A DNA stretch of 64,000 nucleotides from Geothrix fuzhouensis (GTDB taxonomy: Bacteria; Acidobacteriota; Holophagae; Holophagales; Holophagaceae). The stretch spans positions 496,001 through 560,000 of the forward strand of contig NZ_JANHMQ010000001.1 in the NCBI RefSeq assembly GCF_024609325.1, written 5' to 3'. Below, piece after piece: positions 41,046-41,948 of the stretch. Position numbers and translations under genes: made by a program. The stretch's first letter is position 1. Each line of letters opens with the position of its first letter. A model generated the notes under the pieces. That model saw only the letters and a list, made by a program, of their open reading frames with translations, had not been told where the DNA came from and ran no database searches.

Positions 41046-41480
41046 ATGCCCGACCCCGCCCCCCCCTCCTCGCCATCCTTGCGTGCTGCTGGCATGCGGC
41101 AGACGCCACAGCGCGAAGGGATCCTCCAAGTGCTCAAGGACACGGATCGCCCACTCACGGTGGAGGAGATCTGGGAACGCATGCCGGAGCGGCGCTCAGG
41201 CCTGCCCACGGTCTATCGCAATCTCGAGCGCTTCGTGCAAGAAGGCTGGGCCGAGAGCATCATGGGCCCGGACCAGGTGATGCGCTTCGTCCGCTGTGAC
41301 TCGCGCCGGCATCACCACCACCTCCAGTGCGAGCGCTGCGGACGCACCGTAGAAGTGGATGCCTGTGGACTCGACGAGTCGCTCATCGAACTCGAGACGC
41401 TCTCGGGATTCCGGATCACCCGCCATCAGCTGATGCTCTTCGGTCTCTGCCCCACCTGCCGATCCGAAAAAGACCGTTGA
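41046..41480 (+). CDS. fur: Fur-family metal-responsive repressor
   Basis: 144 residues from the ATG at 41046; a Met at codon 17 is an alternative. Winged-helix RQTPQREGILQVLKDTDRPL and TVYRNLERFVQEGW precede HHHHLQCERCGRTVEVD and the C-terminal CPTCRSEKDR. The two CxxC pairs bind structural zinc; the HHHH cluster fits a sensing site. Which metal or peroxide it senses (Fur, Zur or PerR) cannot be settled. A tRNA-Gly promoter begins in its last codons. Confidence 0.9.
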   Translation: MPDPAPPSSPSLRAAGMRQTPQREGILQVLKDTDRPLTVEEIWERMPERRSGLPTVYRNLERFVQEGWAESIMGPDQVMRFVRCDSRRHHHHLQCERCGRTVEVDACGLDESLIELETLSGFRITRHQLMLFGLCPTCRSEKDR

Positions 41481-41505
41481 CCGTATCGCGCGCCATTGCT
41501 AGTCT
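41477..41505 (+). promoter_or_regulatory. Promoter of the tRNA-Gly/tRNA-Cys unit
   Basis: TTGACC (41477-41482) and TAGTCT (41500-41505) are 17 bases apart, close to the sigma-70 consensus. The start near 41512 is five bases before tRNA-Gly. The -35 box overlaps the end of fur. Confidence 0.65.
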
Positions 41506-41516
41506 TGATGTCTCAC

Positions 41517-41591
<75 letters not shown>

Positions 41592-41648
41592 CTTCCCGGG
41601 CCGCGCAAGCGGCCCGTAATGTTTGAAAGCCCCACTGCATCAACGCAA

Positions 41649-41723
41649 GGCGCCGTAGCCAAGTGGTAAGGCCCGGGACTGCAAATCCTGTATCCATCGG
41701 TTCGATTCCGATCGGCGCCTCCA
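41649..41723 (+). tRNA. tRNA-Cys (anticodon GCA)
   Basis: The 5' end GGCGCCGTAGCCAAGTGGTA pairs with CGGCGCC. The anticodon loop ACTGCAAAT gives GCA, the T-arm is GGTTCGATTCC and CCA is encoded. The 3' end plus terminator is repeated 163 bases downstream. Confidence 0.96.
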
Positions 41724-41948
41724 ATCAGCCCCCGCAAGGGGGCTTTTTTACGCCGATCGGAATCGAAGTCGTGGATGGCGCGCAGGTAGGCCCCGCCATG
41801 GGCGCCACTTGATGTGGCGTTCATGGCGAAAAGGGCCGTGCGCAGCCAGCCACGCGGCGGGCACCGGATTCCGATCGGCGCCTCCAATCAGCCCCCGCAA
41901 GGGGGCTTTTTCATGTGCCGATCGGAAGCGAAATCGCGGATGGCGCGA
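41704..41948 (+). repeat. Duplicated tRNA-Cys 3' end, terminator and inverted T-arm
   Basis: A unit of about 82 bases occurs at 41704-41785 and again at 41867-41948 (period 163). It contains GATTCCGATCGGCGCCTCCA (tRNA-Cys 3' end), the terminator and then CGCCGATCGGAATCG, an inverted copy of the tRNA T-arm/acceptor. The second copy is not attached to a tRNA. The ~80 bases between copies are GC-rich and have no gene. Confidence 0.85.
41727..41749 (+). terminator. Terminator of the tRNA-Gly/tRNA-Cys unit
   Basis: AGCCCCC-GCAA-GGGGGCT followed by a six-T run, beginning three bases after the tRNA CCA. A second copy lies at 41890-41911 in the duplicated unit. Confidence 0.9.

Follow-up and report, generated by a model that had tools for sequence, protein, structure and literature searches.

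The locus behind tRNA-Cys(GCA)

The stretch of DNA analysed here (the window) comprises 64,000 nucleotides from Geothrix fuzhouensis (assembly GCF_024609325.1, contig NZ_JANHMQ010000001.1, positions 496,001 to 560,000 of the forward strand), and it contains a tRNA-Gly gene and a tRNA-Cys gene, the latter followed by an ordered series of copies of its own 3' end and T arm, together with terminators and a structured segment that will be called the body. Numbered from the first base of the window, the individual features are as follows:

41517-41591: tRNA-Gly(GCC) (ARAGORN and Rfam)
41649-41723, + strand: tRNA-Cys(GCA), the host gene, from whose T arm and 3' end the copies derive (ARAGORN and Rfam)
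41727-41750, + strand: first terminator hairpin and T run (terminator scan, stem 41727-41744; sequence)
41751-41776, + strand: rcT, the first of two antisense copies of the tRNA-Cys T arm (inverted repeat I1: 26 nt that are 85% complementary to tRNA positions 41692-41717)
41770-41854, + strand: structured body, type A (covariation; match to covariance model R2 at G000:C1:537770-537854, 106.2 bits, the window itself being among the sequences from which R2 was built)
41794-41828, + strand: inner hairpin of the type A body, where most of the compensatory changes fall (columns 25-59 of alignment A8)
41867-41886, + strand: T2, which repeats in sense orientation the final 20 nt of tRNA-Cys, beginning at T-loop position 57 and ending with CCA (direct repeat D1)
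41890-41911, + strand: second terminator hairpin and T run (terminator scan, stem 41890-41907; direct repeat D1)
41917-41947, + strand: second antisense T-arm copy, together with the opening bases of a further, truncated body (direct repeat D2, 90% identical to 41752-41782; inverted repeat I2)

That the tRNA-Cys 3' end, its terminator and an antisense T-arm copy are duplicated 163 bases apart had already been noticed in a reading made from the sequence alone, and this is borne out. Repeat D1 (41704-41748 and 41867-41911) takes in the last 20 nt of tRNA-Cys, a spacer and the terminator, its two 45-nt copies being 100% identical at a spacing of 163, while repeat D2 (41752-41782 and 41917-41947) shows 90% identity at a spacing of 165, implying that the whole repeated unit is about 80 bases long. 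The antisense copy, which the same reading assigned to both units, does occur twice, but the second (41917-41932) is shorter than the first (16 as against 26 nt) and is 94% complementary, with one mismatch. Absent from that reading was the conserved structured body of about 85 nt that fills the interval between the two Cys copies.

A terminator scan of the stretch returned 4 terminator-like hairpins, as against a mean of 0.5 in shuffled sequences, and the 302-nt strand of the locus gave a folding z-score of -9.9. A promoter scan found no sigma-70-like promoter at the Cys unit, implying that any RNA made from it would depend on read-through. Searching the Cys stretch with Rfam at its cut-offs yielded tRNA only, a loose threshold adding only weak matches. 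On the minus strand, ORFs of 105 aa (41570-41887) and 102 aa (41416-41724) run antisense through the tRNA genes and the repeat; these are probably spurious, yet are of a kind that gets annotated.

Host genes, body families and distribution

When all 46 tRNA genes of the same genome were examined, the 110 nt behind the tRNA were found in 15 cases to contain a strong antisense copy of that gene's T arm (local score 12 or more), and in 13 of these 15 the gene's own T arm was the best or equal best match among the 46. In the count used for comparison between genomes the figure is 15 of 45, shuffled sequences reaching this score in 0.1% of cases, as against none of 45 tRNAs in four genomes of the same class outside the family.

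A search of the 302-base Cys stretch against its own genome led to related pieces behind tRNA-Glu(CTC), where a 75-nt unit is repeated at 100% identity; the ends of this unit are tRNA-Glu copies, while its middle resembles the tRNA-Cys body. There are two body families in this genome, namely type A, found behind Cys, Glu(CTC), Val(GAC) and tmRNA (the sole non-tRNA host there), and type B, found behind three kinds of tRNA-Pro, Thr(CGT), His, Arg(TCT) and Arg(CCG). Each family was given a covariance model, R1 being built from 10 of the 15 type B bodies and R2 from 9 hand-chosen type A bodies. With the type B model, 18 matches were obtained in this genome at E of about 0.001 or better, all of them behind the type B tRNAs just listed, together with two weaker ones (E of about 0.03), one behind Pro(GGG) and the other behind no listed tRNA. 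Tandem units are common, up to three having been seen at His and at Pro(GGG), and the unit behind Ser(GCT) is reduced to an antisense copy with the start of a body, where another genome (G046) carries the full unit. At L039 the tRNA-Pro(TGG) gene is separated from its repeat array by an N run with long G and C tracts on either side, so that a misassembly is possible there. A second short repeat of roughly 90 bases, which begins CTGACTCGG-like and ends CGGATGGT-like, appears by eye to be inserted in or at the end of units at L042 (Val(GAC)), L086 (tmRNA), L130 (Leu(TAA)) and L189.

Relatives found through the neighbouring gene were largely Geothrix. Covariance searches of 77 genomes of the family gave a type B match in 52 and a type A match in 47, the type A loci that were fetched being the stronger part of the listed matches. 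Across the phylum the type A model matched in 26 of 396 genomes, only one of which (G177) lies outside the family, and the type B model matched in none of 16 same-class genomes outside the family; as far as seen, the repeats are confined to one family of Acidobacteriota. In the G177 case (L188) a genome from another family of the phylum has a tmRNA-linked unit like those of Geothrix, preceded by the 3' fragment of a tmRNA; the contig is 10 kb long, and the unit may reflect transfer on an island or contamination. No match to a type B unit was found in plasmids or phages, nor any exact pattern match in viral contigs, and the annotated phage matches to the window stretch are tRNA-Cys genes, all nine being limited to the tRNA portion of the query. 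The literature searched yielded no account of such repeats for Geothrix, Holophagaceae or Acidobacteriota.

Within the family the repeats are tied to the 3' ends of tRNA and tmRNA genes. Taking the best 113 of 129 type A matches and removing the one on the antisense strand leaves 112 sense matches. An intact tRNA or tmRNA of the same strand precedes 99 of them, at a median distance of 57 nt; a further 9 lie behind a tRNA or tmRNA 3' fragment or copied end (by eye; one of these nine adjoins an assembly gap), and 4 are at contig edges. The hosts in this set of 112 comprise 16 anticodon kinds of tRNA, along with tmRNA. Among the type B loci fetched in the family search that had no tRNA according to ARAGORN and were not cut by a contig edge, three proved to lie behind tRNA 3' fragments, and one further locus is a mirror-image contig, probably an assembly artefact. 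At L093, L113, L117, L168 and L198, loci of several genomes judged by eye, islands split tRNA or tmRNA genes and the repeat remains behind the tRNA 3' fragment; at L117 an integrase-like C-terminus is visible just upstream of the fragment-linked repeat.

The presence of units varies between species. At the Cys locus the two repeats are 162-165 bases apart in 10 Geothrix genomes, while G. fermentans has a single unit with a cut body and a Geothrix MAG (L060) has no body; these cases, like that of Ser(GCT), look like deletions between repeats. Bodies are closest to one behind the same tRNA in the same genus in 57 of 79 cases, suggesting that movement is rare, and a body shared at 99% identity between Ser(GGA) in one genome (G049) and Ser(TGA) in another (G014), where terminators and antisense copies differ, points to movement or conversion between tRNA genes. 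The signs of concerted evolution at Cys are mixed: identity between the repeats is 0.898 within a genome, while between genomes it is 0.898 for first with first, 0.818 for second with second and 0.848 for first with second, and in 5 of 10 genomes no repeat is nearer to the second one than the first repeat of the same genome.

Matching of ends and conserved base pairing

Both ends of a type A unit match the tRNA behind which it lies. For 79 first units (80 lying at most 110 nt from a tRNA, less one duplicate), the antisense copy had a median score of 16 against the host tRNA and a mean of 7.9 against other tRNAs, the host scoring higher in all 79; for the sense copy the corresponding figures were 18 and 7.4, with the host higher in 73 of the 79. 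A clear sense copy, defined by a score of at least 14, is present in 52 of the 79, and in 32 of these 52 its start lies exactly 20 nt from the tRNA end, at T-loop position 57, while in 38 of the 52 the likeness runs on past the CCA into the terminator. In one genome (G032) an altered T-loop base of tRNA-Cys is mirrored in both copies. The tmRNA units (n = 9) have T-arm scores of 5-8, which amounts to no real T-arm copy, and in these only the terminator stem reaches the CCA end; in most type B units, judged by eye, the repeat end is not identical to the full tRNA 3' end.

The base pairing of the bodies is conserved. Nine type A sequences share 34 pairs with 98.0% of cells paired, and changes on both sides of a pair were seen in 15 pairs, compared with 4.0 in shuffles that ignore relatedness. 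For ten type B sequences (22 pairs, 97.7% paired) there were 31 two-sided cells, compared with 10.0 in shuffles of the same kind, likewise blind to relatedness, one of five measures, that of further pair types, falling below the shuffles (12 against 14.5). Ten orthologous Cys bodies, finally, are 98.8% paired, with 7 two-sided pairs against 1.9 in shuffles (again ignoring relatedness), and most of their loop positions are invariant. As to which strand folds, G-U pairs on the tRNA strand exceed A-C mismatches by 39 to 8 in the one body family and by 76 to 15 in the other, type B. The tRNA strand is thereby favoured as the one that folds, with the caveats that the models had been fitted to this very strand and that a single column holds 61 of the 76 G-U pairs of type B; counting was confined to the first 41 of 53 rows and to the first 70 of 79, which when made unique gave 34 and 68.

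Folding predictions suggest two possible registers for an RNA from this locus. An isolated unit (antisense copy, body, sense copy and second terminator) is predicted to form one long hairpin plus the terminator, at -106.2 kcal/mol, whereas in the full read-through RNA the antisense copy is predicted to pair with the T arm of the tRNA itself, at -181.1 kcal/mol as against -161.1 kcal/mol with the cloverleaf kept. It is the predicted gain of 20 kcal/mol from seizing the tRNA T arm that makes two registers possible, although during transcription the tRNA would presumably fold first.

Relation to known systems and possible origin

The closest likeness is to repeats of E. coli. The published account (PMC8144298) gives 22 tRNA-linked repeats (TLRs) at ten loci, each ending in 18-19 bp identical to the 3' end of the tRNA or rRNA gene that precedes it; they were first described in 1978, no function had been assigned to any TLR until that work, and those in tRNA operons are described as having none known, while the rRNA-operon sRNAs RrA, RrB and RrF are described there as transcribed with the gene by read-through of the first terminator, as processed, and as binding Hfq and CsrA in vitro. 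Among 32 tRNA genes of E. coli K-12, taken from nine selected stretches so that the counts are no census, we found an 18-19 nt sense copy behind 11, a twelfth row, argY, being the argZ copy again. A significant antisense T-arm copy occurs at tyrT and tyrV (score 16, reached in 0 of 300 shuffles), at lysQ (0 of 300) and at lysV (1 of 300); argV is marginal, and the remaining TLR-bearing genes have none; for ten genes there is too little sequence before the next tRNA for the antisense test to be made.

The defining marks of a TLR, namely a repeat whose 3' end is that of the upstream gene and a position directly downstream of a tRNA or rRNA gene in one to several (at most five) units per locus, are both found here, the shared 3' end in the window being 20 nt long. 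The likeness to the E. coli TLRs, including RtT behind tyrT and tyrV (RF00391), thus extends to place, to number of units and to the copying of the 3' end from the T loop onwards (18-19 nt there, mostly 20 nt here); tyrT, tyrV, lysQ and lysV also share the antisense T-arm copy, and RrA, RrB and RrF the position between two terminators. What distinguishes the present repeats is that they have two shared body families, an antisense copy in nearly every unit, a terminator copied along with the end, and tmRNA hosts. Neither R1 nor R2 had a match in five E. coli stretches, and Rfam's RtT model (cut-off 45 bits) exceeded its cut-off in none of 10 genomes here, the best score being 22.4 bits, while the E. 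coli control was positive; three weak RtT matches (19.7-22.3 bits) coincide with units behind tRNA-Gln in G070 and G071, and as the T arms of tRNA-Gln and tRNA-Tyr are similar, they may rest on the copied ends alone. The Holophagaceae and E. coli repeats have a plan in common, while their bodies differ. By plan the present finding belongs with the tRNA-linked repeats, as a new, much larger, tRNA-tracking variant, and is not an att scar.

By analogy with the rRNA-linked repeats of E. coli, the most likely working would be one of read-through, hairpin closure and cutting at both CCA ends. The unit consists of the gene 3' end, a terminator, the antisense T-arm copy, the structured body, the sense copy of the last 20 nt and a second terminator. 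Part of the RNA polymerase would pass the first terminator, the antisense copy would pair with the downstream sense copy so that the body is closed as one long hairpin, and the second terminator would end transcription; the enzymes that trim tRNA 3' ends would then cut behind both CCA ends, releasing a structured RNA of about 140 nt, which may or may not have a role. Recombination between the repeated ends would add, remove and homogenise units, and could help to keep the ends matched to the host tRNA.

That the repeats are TLRs of a lineage not found in print, working in this manner, we hold to be moderately probable. The read-through explanation is supported by the exclusive place of the repeats, their host-matching ends, the conserved pairing, the G-U bias, the two terminators and the same plan in E. 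coli TLRs, and is weakened by the failure to find a promoter, by carriage by only about a third of the tRNA genes (15 of 46), by the varying presence between species, by the tmRNA units with no T-arm copies, by the caveats attaching to the G-U counts, by RtT scores below the cut-off and by a predicted fold that favours the tRNA T arm. It also accords with the last of three options left by the sequence-only reading, those of duplication, failed or lost insertion, and a functional trailer RNA: the trailer option fits best, in view of the structured module, the same spacing of 162-165 in 10 Geothrix genomes, the compensatory changes among orthologs and the presence behind many other tRNAs, with the RNA itself a candidate only. 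More tentatively, and with rather less confidence, one may think of an element whose two ends are rewritten, forward and backward, to match the host tRNA, with its copy edge at T-loop base 57, which spreads among tRNA genes and keeps its core as a structured RNA, the E. coli TLRs being either a second branch or a separate invention of one wider system.

Turning to explanations that require no such RNA, REP/REPIN and MITE sequences are short non-coding hairpins present in many copies, and the repeats could be a non-autonomous mobile element of that general kind, folding as single-stranded DNA, inserting into nothing but the T arms of tRNA and tmRNA genes by means of a recombinase acting in trans, and keeping its fold for mobility. 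The identical orientation and exact target of all placed matches, the sharp copy edge at T-loop position 57 (32 of 52), the tandem units and their variable presence, and the body shared by Ser(GGA) and Ser(TGA) with differing terminators and antisense copies are all what such an element might produce, and single-strand folding would also yield a strand bias. We nonetheless think it unlikely: no recombinase was identified, 57 of 79 bodies are closest to one behind the same tRNA in the same genus, compensatory changes made in place among orthologs are not expected of dead insertions, and insertion alone leaves the new host's antisense copy unaccounted for. Confinement to tRNA and tmRNA 3' ends, with ends copied from the host gene, likewise sets the repeats apart from REP/REPIN and MITE. 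Less probable again, and improbable in absolute terms, is a neutral origin by tandem duplication of the tRNA end together with template switching at the terminator hairpin, which would supply an inverted copy and perfect the palindrome with no selection. It would explain why the antisense copy is an inverted copy of the sequence preceding the terminator, why units collapse, and why the second Cys repeat is nearest to its own first repeat in half of the ten genomes; however, palindrome perfection should erase internal loops, whereas these stay unpaired and nearly invariant among orthologs, the two body families common to different tRNAs are left unexplained, and antisense copies are lacking (0 of 45 tRNAs) in the four same-class genomes outside the family. 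The duplication option of the sequence-only reading survives in part, in that tandem and collapsed units both occur, but bare duplication fails to explain a shared body with tRNA-specific ends.

The remaining possibility, and much the least probable, is that the locus is the scar of an island or of a gene-less integrative element at a T-loop site in tRNA-Cys. The direct repeat of the tRNA 3' end does begin in the T loop, and tRNA and tmRNA genes are the usual targets of tyrosine integrases according to the Islander paper (PMC4383910), where a 2-kb length filter and an integrase are required of tRNA islands. Such islands share with the Cys unit a displaced tRNA 3'-end copy and their tRNA and tmRNA targets, but here only 163 bases, far under that filter, separate the copies, with no integrase ORF and no cargo between them, the interval is constant in 10 species, and there are a structured body shared behind many tRNAs and antisense copies, which a scar leaves unexplained; islands in this family, moreover, leave a different trace beside the repeats, in which the repeat still follows a tRNA 3' fragment. 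The att reading is accordingly disfavoured, as it is by the sequence-only reading's own proposal that many tandem copies in relatives would speak against a scar, tandem units being common.

The repeats thus provide a second, larger set of TLRs in another phylum, with many loci, two body families, compensatory changes and naturally collapsed sites, and impose a rule that any mechanism has to satisfy, that the ends match the host tRNA both ways round. The antisense T-arm copy, found in these repeats as well as at four of the examined E. coli genes, is a testable shared feature, and a displaced tRNA end is evidently not always an att scar.

One further system was considered. Integron attC sites are imperfect hairpins of about 85-125 nt in tandem arrays, with structure kept more than sequence, and their ends carry RYYYAAC and GTTRRRY boxes. 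The resemblance in hairpins and tandem arrays was pursued because IntI passes its curated cut-off in 46 of the 77 genomes; it was rejected, as R1 and R2 gave nothing better than E 0.35 in five integron stretches, four of which contain canonical attC-like sites with R-box ends (box search by script) that look different, and the T-arm ends of the tRNA units, by eye, do not fit the attC boxes. IntI and the repeats do not go together: G031, G050, G051, G064 and G066 have IntI with no R1 or R2 match, and G022, G036, G037, G046 and G047, several of them incomplete, have a match with no IntI. The G. fuzhouensis genome itself contains a chromosomal integron (L241, G000:C2:378000-397900), with an IntI over the curated cut-off (G000:C2:387622-388566, 461.9 bits) and about seven attC-like sites of 124-126 nt.
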